Of a stretch of DNA of 64,000 nt, positions 8,831 to 54,457 are shown in pieces. A program made the translations under genes and the position numbers. Origin of the DNA: Diploptera punctata (Eukaryota; Arthropoda; Insecta; Blattodea; Blaberidae); assembly GCA_030220185.1 (NCBI GenBank), contig JASPKZ010005705.1:362501-426500 (forward strand), read 5' to 3'. Below the pieces are notes generated by a model. That model worked only from the letters and a program-made list of their open reading frames with translations. It did no database searches and was not told where the DNA came from. Every line of letters starts with the position of its first letter. Within the stretch, counting starts at the first letter, position 1.

Positions 8831-8915
8831 AATTTGTGTTCACCGTTGTGGTCTCATTGTAGTATATAGGCCTATATATACCTATACTGTATATGACATG
8901 AAAAGAAAGATAAAT

Positions 8916-10435
8916 GCCTGAACCGGGATTAGAACCCAGACCTCTGAATTGATACTTCACTGCGCTACCGATTACCCTATCCAGACAATACTAGCACAAA
9001 CATTTATTCTTCTTTTTATATATATTCTCTATCATGAGAGGTAGTGAGAAGTCAGTCTCACTGCCCTCTAGTGGCTACTATAAAAAGTAAGCAAATTAAA
9101 GAGAAGTTTTTCTCTATAGCAGTGACGCTTCTTTATTTAGATGTTATAATTACTTTTTTTGCATTGAGCAATACAGGCCTAATATGACATAAAAAGAAAA
9201 ATAAATGCCTGATCCGGGATTTGAACCCAGACCTCTGAATTGATACTTCACTGCGCTACCGATTACCCTATCCAGACAATACTAGCACAAACATTTATTC
9301 TTCTTTTTATATATATTCTCTATCATGAGAGGTAGTGAGAAGTCAGTCTCACTGCCCTCTAGTGGCTACTATAAAAAGTAAGCAAATTAAAGAGAAGTTT
9401 TTCTCTATAGCAGTGACGCTTCTTTATTTAGATGTTATAATTACTTTTTTTGCATTGAGCAATACAGGCCTAATATGACATAAAAAGAAAAATAAATGCC
9501 TGATCCGGGATTTGAACCCAGTCCTCTGAATTGATACTTCACTGCGCTACCGATTACCCTATCCAGACAATACTAGCACAAACATTTATTCTTCTTTTTA
9601 TATATATTCTCTATCATGAGAGGTAGTGAGAAGTCAGTCTCACTGCCCTCTAGTGGCTACTATAACAAGTAAGCAAATTAAAGAGAAGTTTTTCTCTATA
9701 GCAGTGACGCTTCTTTATTTAGATGTTATAATTACTTTTTTTGCATTGAGCAATACAGGCCTAATATGACATAAAAAGAAAAATAAATGCCTGATCCGGG
9801 ATTTGAACCCAGACCTCTGAATTGATACTTCACTGCGCTACCGATTACCCTATCCAGACAATACTAGCACAAACATTTATTCTTCTTTTTATATATATTC
9901 TCTATCATGAGAGGTAGTGAGAAGTCAGTCTCACTGCCCTCTAGTGGCTACTATAACAAGTAAGCAAATTAAAGAGAATTTTTACTCTATAGCACTGGCG
10001 CTTCTTTATTTAGATATTATAATAAAAATGTTGACACTGAGCAATGCAGGCCTAATATGACATGAAAGCAAAATAAATTCCTGAAAAGGGATTTGAACCT
10101 AGACCACTGAATTGATACTTCAGTGCGCTACAGATTACGCTATTCAGACAATCTTAACACAAACATATATTCTTCTTTATATGTATTCTATATTATGAAA
10201 GGTAGCGAGAACTCAATCTCAGTGCCCTCTAGTGGCTATCATAACAAGTAAGCACACACACACATATGTGTGTGTGTGTGTTATAATTAAATTTTTGACA
10301 TTGAGCAATGCAAGCTTAATATGGCATGATAAGAAAAATAAATGCCTGGACGGGATTTGAACCCGGACCTCTCGATTTGTACTCGAAGATGCTATCCATT
10401 ACACTACCAGGCAAATCCAACACAAACACTTATTT
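8916..10435 (-). repeat. tandem array of tRNA-headed units (SINE E)
   Basis: Head-to-tail units begin at 8916, 9207, 9498, 9789, 10079 and 10344, so the period is 291, 291, 291, 290 and 265 bp. Read on the minus strand, each unit starts with a tRNA-like segment of about 72 nt having an intact B box (GGTTCAAATCCCGG). A body of about 220 bp follows, with CCACTAGAGGGCAGTGAGAC and TCTAAATAAAGAAGCG. The first four units differ by only a few bases, while the two at the right end are diverged. The last unit is interrupted at 10447 by SINE A. Confidence 0.9.
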
Positions 10436-10793: not shown

Positions 10794-10998
10794 ATATATA
10801 TATATTCTCCATTATTACAAAATGTAGCGAGAAGATCTTGTAATAATGGAGATTATAGCCTGTATAGGCCTATAAGAAAACTAAGTGTAGGCTATGTATT
10901 GCATTTGCCTAGTGGTGTAATGGATAGCATCCTCGAATACAAATCGAGAGATCCGGGTTCAAATCCCGTCCAGGCATCTATTTTTCTTATCATGTCAT
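10794..10998 (+). repeat. SINE E copy in inverted orientation
   Basis: After the array, TCCATTATTACAA is followed about 20 bp later by its reverse complement TTGTAATAATGGA. Then a plus-strand tRNA-like head at 10899-10970 mirrors the one at 10344-10415. Its cloverleaf is fair: acceptor TGCCTAG/CCAGGCA with one mismatch, anticodon stem CTCGA/TCGAG perfect, loop ATACAAA, B box GGTTCAAATCCC. The loop would read ACA, which is not a normal insect anticodon, so this is a SINE head and not a tRNA gene. Confidence 0.75.
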
Positions 10999-15299: not shown

Positions 15300-16749
15300 C
15301 ACTGCTCAAAAAAATTAGGGGATATTGTAGAATAACCTATTAAGACTATGTTTTAGGAACAGTATTAGATGCAATCACTTTCTATTATTCCAAAAGAATG
15401 AAAACAAGAGTTTGAAGTCATTACATAACCTCTGTACCACACCAGATGTCAAAGAGATCCTGATTAGGAATATGGCAAACAAACAAAGCAACATTAACAT
15501 GGGTGAAAATGTTTCTTTAGTATGGTATATGGTCTCCTCGAACGGCCAGCACTGCCTCACACCTGTGTGGCATTGATGCAATGAGGTTAGGAATGAGTTC
15601 TTGGGGGATACGTGGCCACTCTTCCATAAGAGCAATGTGCAGCTCTGGAACAGTTGTGGGAGGTGCTGGTCTGCCTGCAATGCGCCTGCCTAATGCATCC
15701 CACACATGCTCAATCGGATTTAAGTCCGGGGAGGAAGCTGGCCATTGCATCGCTCCAGCATGTCGTCCACCAAGCCAGTTCTGTGGCATCGTGCATTATC
15801 GTCCATAAAAAGAAAAGAATCACCTATGGCACCAGCATAAGGCACGACAAAAGGTCATCTCTATACCTTACCGCAGTCAAAGTACCACCTTGGATGACGT
15901 AGAGGTCCGTATGTCCACCACTACTGACTCCTGCCCACACCATCAATCCACCGCCACCATATGGGTATCTTTCACGTACAAAAGCTGGATTGTTTCGTGT
16001 CCCTTTTTCTCTCCAGATGAATACACGCCGACTATCACATTCCACGTTGAATCGCGACTCATCAGAAAAAAGAACTGATCTCCATTCAGCATGCCTCCAC
16101 CCACGATGTTCCTCCGCCCAGTTTCTGCGATCTCTACGGTGTTGTGGAGTTAACCTGGTACACACCATGGGCCTACGGGCATAGATACCACTTCCATGCA
16201 GTCGATTAGGGACAGTTTGAGTTGACACCCTGCGTCCTGTTGCTGTTTGAAGTGTATTTCGCAGTTGAGTTGCATTCTGCTGTCTATTCCGACAGGCTGT
16301 TGTTGCTCTTGGTCGACCTTGTCCGGCTCTTCTGTGAACAGTATGTTCTTTGAAAATGATTCCAAAGTCTGAAAATCACGCTTTGAGACACCCCAATGGC
16401 TTGTGCCACCTCTTGTTGTGTCTGTCCAGCTTCCATCCTTCCTATGGCCCTCCAAGCCATTGGTTCAGGTAAATCACGTTGTCGAGGCATCACTCCCTAA
16501 GGCAAGTCATTCGCTAACTGAAAACTGGACTGGATTTAAAAACAGCAACAAAACATTCACCCCCACACCACCCTTTCACATCAACAGTACAGACATTGCC
16601 CTCTGGTGTGGTACCGAGGTTACGTAACAACTTCAAACTCTTATTTGCATTATCTTGGAGTAATAGAAAGTGATTGCATCTAATACTATTCCAAAAAACA
16701 TAGTCTTAATAGGTTATTCTACAATATCCCCTAATTTTTTTGAGCAGTG
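15300..16749 (-). mobile_element. Tc1-like transposon with long inverted repeats
   Basis: The ends CACTGCTCAAAAAAATTAGG (15300) and its reverse complement (ending 16749) are flanked by TA on both sides (15298-15299, 16750-16751). Homology between the two ends goes on for about 160 bp (CTATTAAGACTATGTTTT, GATGCAATCACTTTCTATTA, TTTGAAGT), so the inverted repeats are long. Length is 1450 bp, normal for Tc1 elements. One transposase gene lies between them on the minus strand. Confidence 0.92.
15527..16493 (-). pseudogene. Tc1-family transposase, frameshifted
   Basis: Cut-and-paste transposase. The N-terminus (MPRQRDLPEPMAWRAIGRME, then QEVAQAIGVSQSVIFRLWNH) is a paired-like HTH. The middle piece has RRVSTQTVPNRLHGSGIYAR and the first catalytic Asp in SVLFSDESRF, then GGGGLMVWAGVS. 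The second Asp is in a MDDNARCHRT segment near 15800. The last piece has SSPDLNPIEHVWDALGRR, so the third acidic residue is Glu (DD34E type), and ends AVLAVRGDHIPY. Pieces at 16493-16284, 16228-15824 and 15789-15517 are in three different frames, so at least two indels have killed the gene. No in-frame stop was noted within the pieces. All expected domains are present, so the loss is recent compared with other transposons in the window. Confidence 0.9.
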
Positions 16750-17861: not shown

Positions 17862-17898
17862 CTGTAGCGCTTTCGGGACTAGTCCCATCATCAGCAGG
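17862..17898 (-). ncRNA. hammerhead ribozyme motif (type I-like) of a Penelope-like element
   Basis: On the minus strand CTGATGA (17894-17888) is followed by a perfect stem II GGGAC-TA-GTCCC, then GAAA (17874-17871). A minimal palindromic stem III AGC/GCT follows, then the unpaired cleavage base A (17865). All conserved core positions (CUGANGA, GAAA, UH) are present. Stem I (CAG/CTG) is only 3 bp near the core. Such short stem III motifs are known from Penelope-like retroelements and work best as dimers. It lies directly downstream of a Penelope-type coding fragment on the same strand, which supports the call. Confidence 0.8.
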
Positions 17899-29399: not shown

Positions 29400-30361
29400 C
29401 TAGCTAATATACGGCGTGCGCTGCTACGCCTAAATAAATTAAAATTAATGCGTTTTTATGTTTAGTTAAATAAGTAATGGGAAAAATAATTATAATTTAT
29501 ATCTTTTAGGTACCCCGTGCTGATTACCCAGCGTTGCCCGGGAATCTACGTATCCCGATTTTCTTGACATAAATGAGCTGAAATACGAAAGTTAATGTGT
29601 TTTATGTTTAGTTAAATAAGTGGAAGGAAACATTTATATCGTAATTATTTTTAGATACCCCGTGCTGTTTACCCGGGCGTTGTCCGGGAATTTACTCATC
29701 CCGATCTTCTTGGCATAAATGAGCTGAAAGACAAAAATTAATGTACTTCTTATGATTAGCTGAATAAGTAAAATGAAAAATAATTATAAATGTATATCGA
29801 AATTATTTTAAGATTCCCTGTGCTGATTACCCGGTGTTGCCCGGGAATCTACTTATCTCGATCATCTTGGCATAAATGAGCTAAAAGACAAAATTCGTTA
29901 TTGCGAGTTATCCGTAAAAGAATAGGCCTACCCGCCATGTGCTGTTATGCATGCTTGCACAGGAATGTACGTACTTGTCTCGATCTTCTTGGCATCAATG
30001 AAAGACACAAATGGTTATTGTGAGTTATCCGTAAGAGATAAACATATGCTGTCGTGAACTTTTTTATAGAGCTTTTTGAGATATTCAATTCTGTGTACAT
30101 TAATTTCGTGCATTTCTTATGGTTCAGGCAGCGTAAGCCATTTAAGCGTCCAAAGAGCGACTTTTTTTCACGTTTTCCACTACAAAGGACGATTTTTAAG
30201 GGTGTAAGAGTTGAGTATCACAACTCTCTTATAGCGTATGTTCATCCCAGGAATCTACTGAACAATTTGCAAAATGCCCCAACACAATCGGATCAACGGT
30301 AATAGCCGCGCATAAAGTACGAACGAACGAACAAACAAAGAAACATTTTTTATACATTAGA
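29400..30361 (-). mobile_element. Helitron-like element, non-autonomous (copy 2)
   Basis: On the minus strand it runs from A|TCTAATGTATAAAAAATG to TATTAGCTAG|T, again between host A and T. Eleven bases before CTAG is a perfect hairpin stem AGGCGT/ACGCC around GCAGCGC, the Helitron 3' signature. The interior is a minisatellite with units near 29511, 29656 and 29814 (spacing about 145-158 bp), each with ACCCCGTGCTG, TTGCCCGGGAATCTAC and TTGGCATAAATGAGCTGAAA. Confidence 0.82.
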
Positions 30362-30362
30362 T

Positions 30363-30605
30363 TTGGTGTTTACTTGATTAAAATCCATTATGTTTAGTGA
30401 TTAAATAAAATGAAACTGTTAAAGTTTTATACGATTTTCATATTTATTTTAACACAAATTCGTTACAGCTGTTTCAGTACTCTGTACATTCTACAGACGG
30501 AAATGAATATAGGTCAGAAGAAGGTACAAAGTACTGAATCAGTTGTAACATGTTTGTATTAAAATAAATATGAAAACCATAACACTTTTTAACAGTTTTA
30601 TTTAA
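30363..30605. mobile_element. decayed palindromic foldback element (relative of 38983)
   Basis: The left arm GATTTTCATATTTATTTTAA pairs with TTAAAATAAATATGAAAACC. Inside, TTACAGCTGTTTCAGTACTC mirrors GAAGGTACAAAGTACTGAAT. The outer left flank TTGGTGTTTACTTGATTAAA also precedes the palindrome at 38983 (TTGGTGATTACTTGATGAAA). The hammerhead core is damaged on both strands (CTGTAGA and CAGAAGA). Confidence 0.7.
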
Positions 30606-30639
30606 CCACTATTTTTTATCTTTCACCGCTCTGCTCTAC

Positions 30640-38125: not shown

Positions 38126-38439
38126 CACGTAATATAAAGTATAAATCCTGGAAGAAAATTTGTGTGAATGTTTTATTTTTTTATCAGTTCAACGTTTTAA
38201 AGGGTGTTTAAAATATATTTCAATAATTTAGAGCTAGACACCCAACTTGAAGAGGCTGAAAAATATTTATATATACTCGTCTCTGACGTCAGCCATGATT
38301 TTAGATACTGGCGGCATCTGTAAATGTATTATCTTTAAGCAGGACACTGAAGTTAAAAGTTATATTCCCTGCAGACAGTCCATAGTCTGAATAAATGCAC
38401 AATTTTATCTCGCATCATAACACTGTGACAATCAAGATG
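38126..38439. other. no gene or element recognised
   Basis: AT-rich DNA between a LINE-A scrap and MITE-2. Confidence 0.5.
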
Positions 38440-38817
38440 TAGTCGGCTCAGTAATTTAGTTTACAGGCACTTTGCTTTGAGGCTATTTTGCACGTATAAG
38501 TATTTAGCGTATCAAGCGGCGTTGTCACATTTTATTCAGTAGAATACATTTTTACCAACTAAAGACACTGCAAAATACAAAATTGTAACGCTGTTAAGAT
38601 AATTATATCCCCTTGTTATAGACACCAAATCGTCATTTAAAAATGCGAAGACGTTATTGGCAGAAAACTGTTTTCAGTTTTTGGTGACTGCAGCGGCGTC
38701 TTAGAAGCCACTAACAACTCCTCGGCTCTACTTGGCAGTAACTATGTATTTTTTTTAACCAGAGTGAAACAGTTACCATTGATGCCGCCTGTAAACTAAA
38801 TGACTGAGCCAACTGTA
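38440..38817. mobile_element. MITE-2 copy 1 (TA target)
   Basis: The ends TAGTCGGCTCAGTAATTTAG and TAAATGACTGAGCCAACTGTA (last 20 compared) are inverted repeats of about 28 bp reaching GTTTACAGGC. The flanking TA fits Tc1/mariner-type insertion. The body is shared with 40396-40780. Confidence 0.82.
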
Positions 38818-39044
38818 ACTATCACACATATGCCCAGGAAATTATATCCTTTTCCTTCCTTTTTGGACAGTTTTCCTATTCTCATACTTTATAAATATGA
38901 GATTTGAAAAGAATTGTATATATTTAAATATATTATTATTTAATCAATTGAGTTGGTGATTACTTGATGAAAATCCATATTTATTAATTAAATAAAAATA
39001 AAACGTACTTTTATTTGATTTTCATATTTATTATATAATTCAGT

Positions 39045-39077
39045 GACAGCTGTTTCGGTACACTGTACCTTCTTCAG
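39045..39077 (-). ncRNA. hammerhead ribozyme motif, left arm
   Basis: On the minus strand CTGAAGA (39077-39071), stem II AGGTACAGTGTACC, GAAA, stem III ACAG/CTGT without loop, and cleavage base C at 39045. It is the mirror copy of the motif at 39103-39135. Confidence 0.65.
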
Positions 39078-39102
39078 AGTCTTCTATAGTTTGTTAACAT
39101 GT

Positions 39103-39135
39103 CTGAAGAAGGTACAGTGTACCGAAACAGCTGTC
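39103..39135 (+). ncRNA. hammerhead ribozyme motif, right arm
   Basis: CTGAAGA (39103-39109, fits CUGANGA), stem II GGTAC-AGT-GTACC, GAAA (39124-39127), minimal palindromic stem III ACAG/CTGT, cleavage base C39135. All core bases are present. Stem I next to the core is weak (AC/GT then mismatch). Confidence 0.65.
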
Positions 39136-39197
39136 ACTGAATTATATAATAAATATGAAAATCAAATAAAACTACGTTTTATTTTTATTTAATTAAT

Positions 39198-39649
39198 ATT
39201 ATTATTTGTTCAGTTAAAATCAGTTCTCACTTCCTGACATTAAAATTAACTTATTTAATCTGCTATAGAGTGTCAAAAATCTGAAATTTGTATCAAAAGT
39301 AAATTAAATCGGACAACAAATTAAATTCTTTAAGAAATTTCACATTTCTTTATAATTCACAGGAGAGAAGATAAATCTTACACATCTACATTCAAAATAA
39401 TGATAGCCTATTAAGGTAATTAATAACGAGAAATTGGCATGCCTGCCACATTAAATTATCTCCCTTATAATTAGTGCAAAGCCTGCTTTTAATTTGATTT
39501 ACAGCAAGCCAACTGTAAAAAAATGACGCACGTCCATTAATTCATTTAGGGGAGTGGGGTGAAAATACATGTTGAAAGAAAATAAACAAAATCTATCTCA
39601 CTTTTTTATGAAATGCGTCTAAAAGTTAATGAAACGTAACTAATATACT
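39198..39649. other. no gene or element recognised
   Basis: AT-rich DNA. Confidence 0.5.
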
Positions 39650-40345: not shown

Positions 40346-40395
40346 GATAACATGTAGTGAGGTTGAAGAGGTGAACATTTCAAATGCTGGAGATA

Positions 40396-40780
40396 TAGTC
40401 GGCTCAGACATTTAGTTTACAGGTGCTTTGTGGTTAAGTATGTCTATACTGCACGCATAAGTATTTAGCATATCAAGCGGCGTTGTTACGTTTTATTTCA
40501 CTAGAATACATTTTTACCAACTAAAGATACTGCAAAATACAAAAGTTGCAACGCTGTTAAGATTATTATATTCACATGGAGTAGACATGAAAATGTAATT
40601 TAAAAATGCGAAGACATTATTGGTATAGAACTGTTTTCAGTTTTTGGTGATTGGAGCGGCGTCTTAGAAGTCACTAACAACTCTCCGGCTCTAAACTTGG
40701 CAGTCCGATGTAATTTTTAAACCAGAGGGAAACAGTTGCCTTTGATGCCGCCTGTAAACTAAATGACTGAGCCGACTGTA
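40396..40780. mobile_element. MITE-2 copy 2 (TA target)
   Basis: The ends TAGTCGGCTCAGACATTTAG and CTAAATGACTGAGCCGACTG are inverted repeats, followed by TA. The body (AAGTATTTAGCATATCAAGC, TTGGTGATTGGAGCGGCGTC) aligns with 38440-38817. Confidence 0.85.
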
Positions 40781-52473: not shown

Positions 52474-54457
52474 CTAGCTCATACCCCGCGTGCGCTGCTA
52501 TGCCTAAATAAATGTAAACTAATGTATTTTTATATTTAGTTGAATAAGTAAAAGGAAAAAAATTATAAATTTATATCGTATTATTTTTAGACATCTCGTG
52601 CTGATTACCCGGCGTAGCCCGAGAATCCACTTATCCCTATATTATTGGCATAAATGGGCTGAAAGACGAAGATTTTTATGTTTATTTGAATACGTGAAAG
52701 TAAAAATTTATATCGTAATTATGTTTAGTTACCCCGTGCCGATTACCCGGCTTTGCCCGGGAATCTACTTATCCCGATCTTCTTGGCATAAAAGAGCAGA
52801 AAGGCGAAAATTAATGTTTTTAACTTTAGTTAAAATAAGTAAAAGTAAAAAATAATTATAAATTTATATCGTAATTATTTTAAATTACCCCGTGATGATT
52901 ACCATTGTTGCCAGGGAATCTAGTTTTCTCGATCTTATTGGCATAAATAAGCTGGAAGACAAAATTCGTTATTGTGAGTTATCCGTAAAAGAACGACCAC
53001 CGTGCGCTGCTACGCTTGCCCGAGAATCTACTTCCCCGATCTTCTTGACATCAATGAAAGACAAAAACGGTTATTGTGAATTATTAATAGATTTTATTAA
53101 ACACAATGTGTACATTTAGAGTTTTCGCCAGTCTTTTGTAATTTTGGTGAGTTCTGATTTTGCATTTCATTAGGTGGTACTTGGAGCATGGCTCGTCGCA
53201 AAGCTTACATCTGCAGTCCTCCTTGGGGTCGTGGTATGACGGATTCTGACATATTTTCCCGTGGAAACCATGCGCGGTGAAGCGTGTGTATAGGTGGCGA
53301 AGTTGGAAGTTCGGTCCTTTCCACACATCAGTTTTCATCGTTTCTGTGTCCATTATTTCCATCGGTATTGCATTGGCTTTGTTTTGTCTCTCTTTGATGG
53401 CGTCTTTATATGCCTGGGTTTCTGGTAGAATGAAGTGAAGCTTGATGTCCTCAATGAAGTAGGGTTCATGTGCTATTCTGTAGGCGTAGCTGTTTCTTGT
53501 GTACTTTGAGAGTGACAAGGCCCTCTTGAGATATCTGGCTTTGACATTCTTCCAATTTCTTGAGGTTTTCCGCTGTTAGGTGAATCCAAATATCTCAATA
53601 TCCGTATGTGGCCGCTGGTGTTACCTTGAGTTGGAACAGTGCCATCGCCATTGGCAGGGACAGTCTCTGAAGCTTGGGGATGTCGAACATCGAATTTATT
53701 GCCGCTGTGGTCCTGTCTTGTATATGCATGGTGAACGTGGTTCCAGTTGTCTGCAGCGTCACTCCCAGGTACTTAAAGTTGGGGACTATTTCTAGGGCTG
53801 AGTCGCCGCACATAAAGTGGTCATTTTTTGATAATCTCCCTCCTCTTCTGAACTTCATTGCTTTTGTTTTGGAGCTATTTATTTCCATTGAATTTTCTGA
53901 CGCCCATTTTCTGATATTCTTCATGGCCTCCTGCAGATCTTCAGGACACTTGGAAAGGATGGCCATGTCATCGGCATACATTAATAGCTTTATATTTCTT
54001 GCGTTTATAGCTTGCCCAATATCGGCCGTCATAGTGTTAAAGAGGACTGGGCTCAGTGGGTCTCCTTGTAGGACTCCTCGTGTTTGAGCAATTTCTTTTG
54101 ACATTGATATGCCACCGTAGATTGCTACATAGTTGGTGCTGAGAATCGATTTTATTGTCTCCAGTTCGCGACTTGACCTGCCCAGTGGCGTTCTCCAGCT
54201 TGTGGCAAAGTAAATTTCTGTTAATGTGAATTATCCGTAAAATATAATTATTTCGGTGTCTTTATTATGGTCTAGGTAGCGTAAGCCATTTAAGCGTCCA
54301 AAAAAGGGGCTTCTTCTCGTTTTTTACACTCTCTTATAGTCTATTGTTCATCCCGAGAATCTCCCGAACATTTTGCAAAAAGCCCCATCATAATCGGATG
54401 AAAGGTTTGGCAGCGCATAATATTCTAACAAACTATCATGCATTTTTATATAATAGA
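52474..54457 (-). mobile_element. Helitron-like element (copy 3), with LINE inside
   Basis: On the minus strand it runs from TCTATTATATAAAAATGCAT to TATGAGCTAG|T, with the 3' segment GGCATAGCAGCGCACGCGGG. Internal minisatellite units (ATTACCCGGCGTAGCCCG, TTGCCCGGGAATCTACTTAT, TTGGCATAAA) recur about four times. The LINE at 53084-54219 interrupts it. Confidence 0.78.
53084..54219 (-). pseudogene. 5'-truncated LINE with reverse transcriptase palm and C-terminal zinc knuckle
   Basis: Reverse transcriptase of a non-LTR retrotransposon. The first frame (to 53595) reads YGGISMSKEIAQTRGVLQGD, PLSPVLFNTMTADIGQAI, IKLLMYADDMAILSK (YADD catalytic motif), SKTKAMKFRRGG, VPNFKYLGVTLQTTG and MALFQLKVTPAATYGY. 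After a frameshift and stop at about 53525-53595 a second frame continues: MSLSKYTRNSYAYRIAHEPY to CRCKLCDEPCSKYHLMKC, a C-C-H-C knuckle as in R1/I-type LINE C-termini, ending VHIVFNKIY. The catalytic motif survives, but the endonuclease and first RT motifs are missing. GTTATTGTGAATTA (53070-53083) and GTTAATGTGAATTA (54220-54233) are the target duplication, so the piece is a whole insertion. Confidence 0.88.

Follow-up and report, generated by a model that had tools for sequence, protein, structure and literature searches.

The window analysed here is a 64,000-nt stretch of Diploptera punctata DNA (contig JASPKZ010005705.1, positions 362,501 to 426,500), and it features a palindrome of two 97-nt arms, 38982-39078 and 39102-39198, that are identical at 96 of 97 positions and separated by a 23-nt spacer. 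The initial annotation had described this palindrome and a hammerhead motif on opposite strands of its two arms, and both are borne out; the sole arm difference is 39008 versus 39172, and the motif lies at 39103-39135 (plus) and 39045-39077 (minus). Short direct repeats bound the structure, which is therefore delimited as a 254-bp insertion at 38942-39195. Judged from its homologous copies, it is a very short Penelope-like retrotransposon (PLE) insertion of a recurrent type, with two pLTR ends placed head to head. The features of this insertion and of a second one are given below, with the minus strand of the first copy being the element sense that carries the tail.

38930-38941, no strand: target site duplication (TSD) copy, ATATTATTATTT, from an exact 12-nt repeat at the element boundary.
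38942-39195, minus: whole PLE insertion (copy 1), 254 bp, two head-to-head pLTR ends, from TSD boundaries and homologous copies.
38942-38981, minus: 40-nt tail, AAT followed by ATG (38978-38976) and the first codons, MDFHQVITNSID, on one arm only.
38982-39078, minus: left, tailed arm, a pLTR 3' end with hammerhead-like core, from homologous copies and folds.
39008, no strand: arm mismatch (partner 39172), a C/G source allele common to other insertions, from arm and locus alignments.
39045-39077, minus: core within the tailed arm, with cleavage predicted between 39045 and 39044, from motif and descriptor.
39079-39085, minus: 7-nt filler AGAAGAC at the head-to-head junction, matched by the natural upstream sequence of neither arm.
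39086-39195, plus: untailed arm, of which 39086-39101 (16 nt) is natural pLTR upstream sequence known from L036, L038, and other copies.
39102-39198, plus: right arm of the palindrome, from inverted-repeat comparison.
39103-39135, plus: core within the untailed arm, with cleavage predicted between 39135 and 39136, from motif and descriptor.
39196-39207, no strand: TSD copy, ATATTATTATTT, from the exact 12-nt repeat.
30354-30610, minus: second, older insertion of the same kind, from the window self-search.
30395-30497, minus: tailed arm of the second copy, from the window self-search.
30514-30611, plus: untailed arm of the second copy, from the window self-search.
30345-30353 and 30611-30619, no strand: TSD of the second copy, ATAAAAAAT, found by eye.

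The tail of copy 1 extends 12 codons into the ORF, the only ORF codons that the window copy keeps, and the opposite end stops a few nt before the ATG; the first three bases of the right TSD (39196-39207) lengthen the palindrome arm by chance. In longer copies the natural sequence upstream of the core reads ...GGAACACAATTCATAGTTTGTTAACATG followed by TCTGAAG, and because these copies reveal it, 39086-39101 is assigned to the plus-strand arm and 39079-39085 to filler. This junction walk was used for the window copy only, since small indels misplaced the junctions in L054, L059, L061, L062, and L073. The second copy features a 16-nt loop, and its palindrome (about 30345-30625) is 72% identical to that of copy 1 across 285 bp in the window self-search. 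In both window copies the similarity continues beyond one arm only, into ATGGATTTT(C/A)ATCAAGTAA(T/A)CACCAA(C/A)TC, which translates as an ORF start and gives MDFHQVITNSID in copy 1.

A first search of the species' own 3.12-Gb assembly gave 84 matches from the best 40 of 381 candidates, and 38 stretches around these matches were taken for comparison. Same-end arms meet head to head, 3' ends pointing outward, in 33 of these 38 stretches (best 40 of 381 candidates); the stretches of L038, L041, L042, L044, and L047 do not include another full arm of opposite orientation. A second search used the tailed end as query and provided, from the best 40 of 460 candidates, 36 new stretches, of which 34 are distinct. 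The arms of the sampled copies vary in length between about 100 nt and just under 1 kb. The longest copies (L036/L039/L040, which have similar flanks and are treated as a single insertion) feature broken GIY-YIG-like and RT-like ORF remnants upstream of the pLTR. The GIY-YIG-like ORF, at 4100-4486 of L039, ends about 77 nt upstream of the core and has a Pfam E-value of 6e-4, just under its cut-off; the RT-like ORF has no Pfam match of its own, and one of its four homologues is an RVT_1 protein. The link to Penelope, which had been proposed as a check, is supported. A second GIY-YIG-like ORF, about 3 kb from the pLTR of L038, may come from another element. L058 features two mirror-image Penelope palindromes about 140 bp apart (400-1100 of that stretch), which suggests a further inverted duplication.

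The core has the same sequence in both arms, CTGAAGA-A-GGTAC-AGT-GTACC-GAAA-CAGCTG-T-C. It includes the conserved CUGANGA / GAAA / UH core with stem II, although one extra A separates A9 from stem II; a viroid hammerhead tolerates such an A. A descriptor requiring CTGANGA, a stem II of at least 4 bp, GAAA, and a stem III of at least 3 bp is expected to match 0.03 times per 64 kb (200 simulated windows), and in the window it matches both arm cores and one unrelated site at 17894 (minus). The two cores count as one finding because the palindrome doubles the core, and it is unlikely that the core arose by chance. The match at 17894 reads CTGATGA-TGGGACTAGTCCC-GAAAGCGCTA, and homology to the palindrome is not evident.

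Stem III of the core has no loop. Unconstrained folds form stem II on both strands and, in the plus-strand fold only, a weak stem I-like helix that pairs 39085-39093 with 39138-39146. Neither fold makes a hammerhead junction because C3-U4-G5 are paired with the CAG of stem III on both strands, and the three-way junction is absent from predicted folds with or without the natural upstream sequence, while stem II is kept. Rfam gave zero hammerhead matches at E ≤ 10 for the window palindrome and for L038, which has a longer natural upstream sequence. By its motif, the core is near-canonical and hammerhead-like. Since stem III has no loop, the core may work as a dimer; ACAGCTGT is self-complementary, which would be what a dimeric helix III needs. 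Hammerheads near the ORF start in the pLTR occur in other PLEs (PMC11167929; PMC7761336), and the minimal type I hammerheads of PLEs may act as dimers (PMC7761336). The Diploptera core resembles the latter, as described there, in its CTGANGA...GAAA core and in having almost no stem III loop, and differs in its extra A after A9 and weak stem I.

A hammerhead-cleaved RNA as template is unsupported: one of the 34 distinct tailed arms of the second sample (best 40 of 460), that of L078, starts at the predicted cut (+34), in a count where shorter arms are disfavoured because the second query began at +33. L078 might be an insertion from cleaved RNA, or the start might be chance; by eye, a short inverted-arm-like stretch seemingly lies upstream of it. 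These sequences give no sign that the core acts in the insertions, and it is present in both orientations because both pLTR ends carry it. A microRNA precursor was also rejected, as the sub-threshold Rfam miRNA matches only mirror the long hairpin. Pattern scans of IMG/VR and GTDB did not find a close copy; five IMG/VR contigs (L001-L005) contain CTGAAGAAGGT-N-ACCGAAAC, loose matches that share the outer frame of the core.

The copies appear to be independent insertions. An exact string of at least 9 nt lies near both boundaries in 19 of 25 distinct sampled loci, and one of at least 12 nt in 14 of 25, with the duplicate L065 left out; cross-locus controls gave 15/650 and 4/650, respectively, and two of these four are the duplicate pair L065. 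Among the loci with the longer string, L058 is unsafe, as it sits in an ATT repeat. The junction coordinate pairs, entered by hand, are all different in the 22 short palindromes sampled, so that the head-to-head inverted-repeat unit is not identical among copies, and the junctions feature little microhomology and often a few filler bases. Because junctions and flanks vary between copies, an artefact or a palindrome that moves as a unit is disfavoured. That the arms are an assembly artefact is very unlikely, given that dozens of loci have such a structure, each time with other junctions and flanks.

The two ends of an insertion are of different types. By hand count, 30 of 31 distinct two-ended insertions carry a tail at one end and not at the other; L071 has no tail, and no insertion has two. 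Tailed ends score at least 24 and untailed ends at most 9, and the cut-off of 20 was set by this gap among pairs, because the random tail control contained real tails (99% at 28). The count drops L065, L091, and L092 for duplicate flanks, leaves out the nested L072, counts the mirrored second pair of L058 once, and keeps L071 as the exception; L038, L041, L042, L044, and L047 are outside it. In the second sample the untailed partner ends at +92 to +98 in 8 of 9 distinct cases with a readable 3' end, and for the remaining partner, that of L101, the alignment continues to +113 at low identity. An inverted partner is present in 19 of 25 distinct insertions of this sample whose upstream end was reached and absent from 6 (hand count); in 9 more the upstream end lies beyond the fetched stretch.

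This architecture is already known for PLEs, and what is new is the evidence on how it forms. Among the Penelope elements of Adineta vaga (PMC3846280), Pen2a_Av and its relatives feature inverted head-to-head pLTRs with an optional 31-bp tail on one of them, the pLTR and tail extend into the first ORF codons, palindromes occur at the inverted junction, and TSDs are 8-10 bp in several inserts and missing from others. The Diploptera insertions share the head-to-head pLTRs, the one-sided tail, the extension into ORF codons, the TSDs, and the junction palindromes. In contrast to A. vaga as described there, many of the copies sampled are short enough to retain little or none of the ORF, TSDs typically have a length of 12-14 bp, and the one-tail pattern is nearly strict (30/31 in the sample).

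A second comparison is with PAc (Poseidon, from Anolis carolinensis), whose purified protein cuts and extends both strands (PMC11167929), with the later insertion steps left for validation. There the tail, 30-40 bp long, corresponds to the stretch that separates two internal RT start sites, the pLTR has a hammerhead near the ATG, the RT start region is AC-rich, and the targets are AT-rich. The PAc hammerhead is reported to need protein for cleavage and to be unneeded for insertion in vitro (PMC11167929). The Diploptera family is similar in its hammerhead-like core near the ATG in the pLTR, its tail in the 30-40-bp range, its AC-rich start, and its AT-rich targets. There are also differences from that account: the PAc ORF begins at stem II and the cut is 26 bp downstream of the ATG, whereas the core here is about 100 nt upstream of the ATG, and the main RT start of PAc is 111-118 bp into the ORF, whereas the tail here ends about 37 nt into it. 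Because in PAc two RT start sites delimit the tail and both strands are cut and extended, both ends of the window insertion look like RT starts.

Source alleles bear on whether one template or two gave rise to the arms. Sites were chosen whose minor allele occurs in at least 5 insertions, and at four of them (-72, -66, -13, and +70) the two arms carry different alleles in 39 comparisons and the same minor allele in one, with disagreement in 31 of 32 informative insertions; both counts cover the two samples, which are the best 40 of 381 and the best 40 of 460 candidates. In the first query one arm has C and the other G, which favours discordant pairs at +70, and the G form is present at -13; without +70 of the first sample the count is 31 to 0. 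The second query selects G on the tailed arm, so that the G form in 34 of 36 tailed arms of the second sample is due to selection and only the partner arm is free of it; the untailed partner of a G-tailed arm has C in all 9 readable cases (8 distinct) of that sample. Three further alleles, likewise present in at least 5 insertions, adjoin a length-variable stretch and the arm end and were kept out of the 40 comparisons, namely +73 C/A (4 agree, 0 disagree), +73 C/T (0 agree, 4 disagree), and +93 A/G (1 agrees, 3 disagree), and with them the count is 46 to 6. The MAFFT alignment gives 2 agreements and 2 disagreements for +73 C/A and makes L062 and L073 discordant at +70, where BLAST gives C/C for L073 and does not reach L062. 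A tally of all shared minor alleles in long palindromes (2 agree, 50 disagree) was set aside because repeated mutation could account for much of it.

Copied arms should agree apart from later mutation, and since 39 of 40 comparisons are discordant, the arms seem to come from different RNAs. For the window copy, too, the alleles indicate that the arms most likely derive from two RNAs, though they are 99% alike. The initial annotation had taken the near identity of the arms as a sign of recent origin or gene conversion. The exact 12-bp TSD agrees with a recent insertion; the mismatch is an allele present in other insertions, and neither arm is likely ever to have been a copy of its partner.

The two arms are nevertheless matched in extent. 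In the second sample, 14 of 19 arm pairs stop within 25 nt of each other upstream, whereas shuffling gives 3.4 pairs on average and never more than 10 in 20000 rounds. Partner arms also have 23 variants in common against a shuffled mean of 6.7, a value reached in 0 of 5000 shuffles; 19 of the 23 are in L066, L067, L068, L070, and L073, which look like an older subfamily. The two ends thus appear to be coupled somehow, and a protein dimer that extends both strands in step is a possibility.

From the observed anatomy, TSD, two end types, differing junctions, and alleles pointing to two templates, we infer that each strand primed its own cDNA, in the following order. The endonuclease/RT of the element would cut the two target strands about 12 bp apart, and every 3' end would then prime reverse transcription of its own element RNA. 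One priming start would be the tail site, 12 codons into the ORF, and the other the pLTR end just before the ATG. The antisense cDNAs would run upward through the hammerhead-like region and be joined head to head a short way beyond it; the product, flanked by a 12-bp TSD, would be a palindrome whose pLTR 3' ends both face outward. The probable route is thus insertion at a staggered cut, each strand of which primes reverse transcription. The fuller reading, paired two-template target-primed reverse transcription, in which Penelope family insertions come from two RNA molecules, one per strand of the staggered cut, with fixed end roles and cDNAs that stop in step before joining, is held a little less firmly, as somewhat better than an even call. 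A two-template result for PLEs was not stated in the open-licence papers searched. There are competing views of how Penelope forms inverted pLTRs, tails, and TSDs; source alleles provide a test of one RNA versus two, which points to two here, and the many short, cleanly bounded insertions in one genome make it a direct test of how Penelope inserts form.

One target-primed cDNA from the sense RNA, followed by a jump of the RT to an antisense RNA with a fixed 5' end at the untailed end, would also account for two templates, a single tail, and an untailed end at a fixed position, and a possible bidirectional pLTR promoter is remarked on for A. vaga (PMC3846280). However, the untailed type of end has its counterpart in an RT start site that a PLE uses in vitro (PMC11167929), and the matched arm extents are equally unexplained by a jump, which is considered unlikely.

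Self-priming, in which one arm is copied from the other after the first cDNA, or else an antisense template, has folded back, is the published inference for the A. vaga palindromes (PMC3846280). It would provide the nearly equal arm lengths, the palindromic junctions, and the excess variant sharing within a copy, and it would predict the matched upstream stops (14 of 19 pairs), which count against two independent cDNAs. The allele discordance argues against it here, as different source alleles are found in 39 of 40 comparisons at four sites and in 46 of 52 with three more. Additionally, only the tailed arm could be the first strand, yet 10 of 14 near-symmetric pairs have the longer arm on the untailed side, and a copy stop 40 nt before the tail end is unexplained. 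Folding back is therefore judged quite improbable.

The initial annotation had singled out a special bidirectional ribozyme foldback, and a selected structure of this kind, with the foldback itself functional, has very little probability. The core is kept in both arms and its chance occurrence is low, but it is carried along since it sits in the pLTR, it has no Rfam match, and its divergence is not clearly below that of the rest (12/997 variants in the core versus 141/6923 elsewhere). The palindrome is ordinary in kind, a short Penelope insertion, and a 'ribozyme palindrome' needs no special function. Least probable of all is a DNA-level foldback or MITE family transposed as a ready-made palindromic unit with terminal inverted repeats, which would also be short, palindromic, TSD-flanked, and multi-copy, but is at odds with junction coordinates that differ in 22 of 22 short copies, with arms of about 100 nt to nearly 1 kb that have the same two end types, and with the PLE coding remnants of the longest copies.

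The window includes other repeats. A direct repeat of about 390 bp, 85% identical, at 38435-38817 and 40391-40780, flanks the palindrome and is possibly the ends of an older element that received the Penelope copy. Other transposon remnants are a reverse transcriptase ORF (RVT_1) at 53595-54230 (minus) and an ORF with a Tc3-type HTH transposase domain at 15824-16375 (minus). At 8891-10254, 4.7 copies of a 291-bp tandem repeat hold tRNA-Asp-like genes, of which ARAGORN finds four (anticodon atc) and Rfam a fifth at 10078-10149, and tRNA-Cys-like genes are located nearby at 10342-10413 and 10906-10978.
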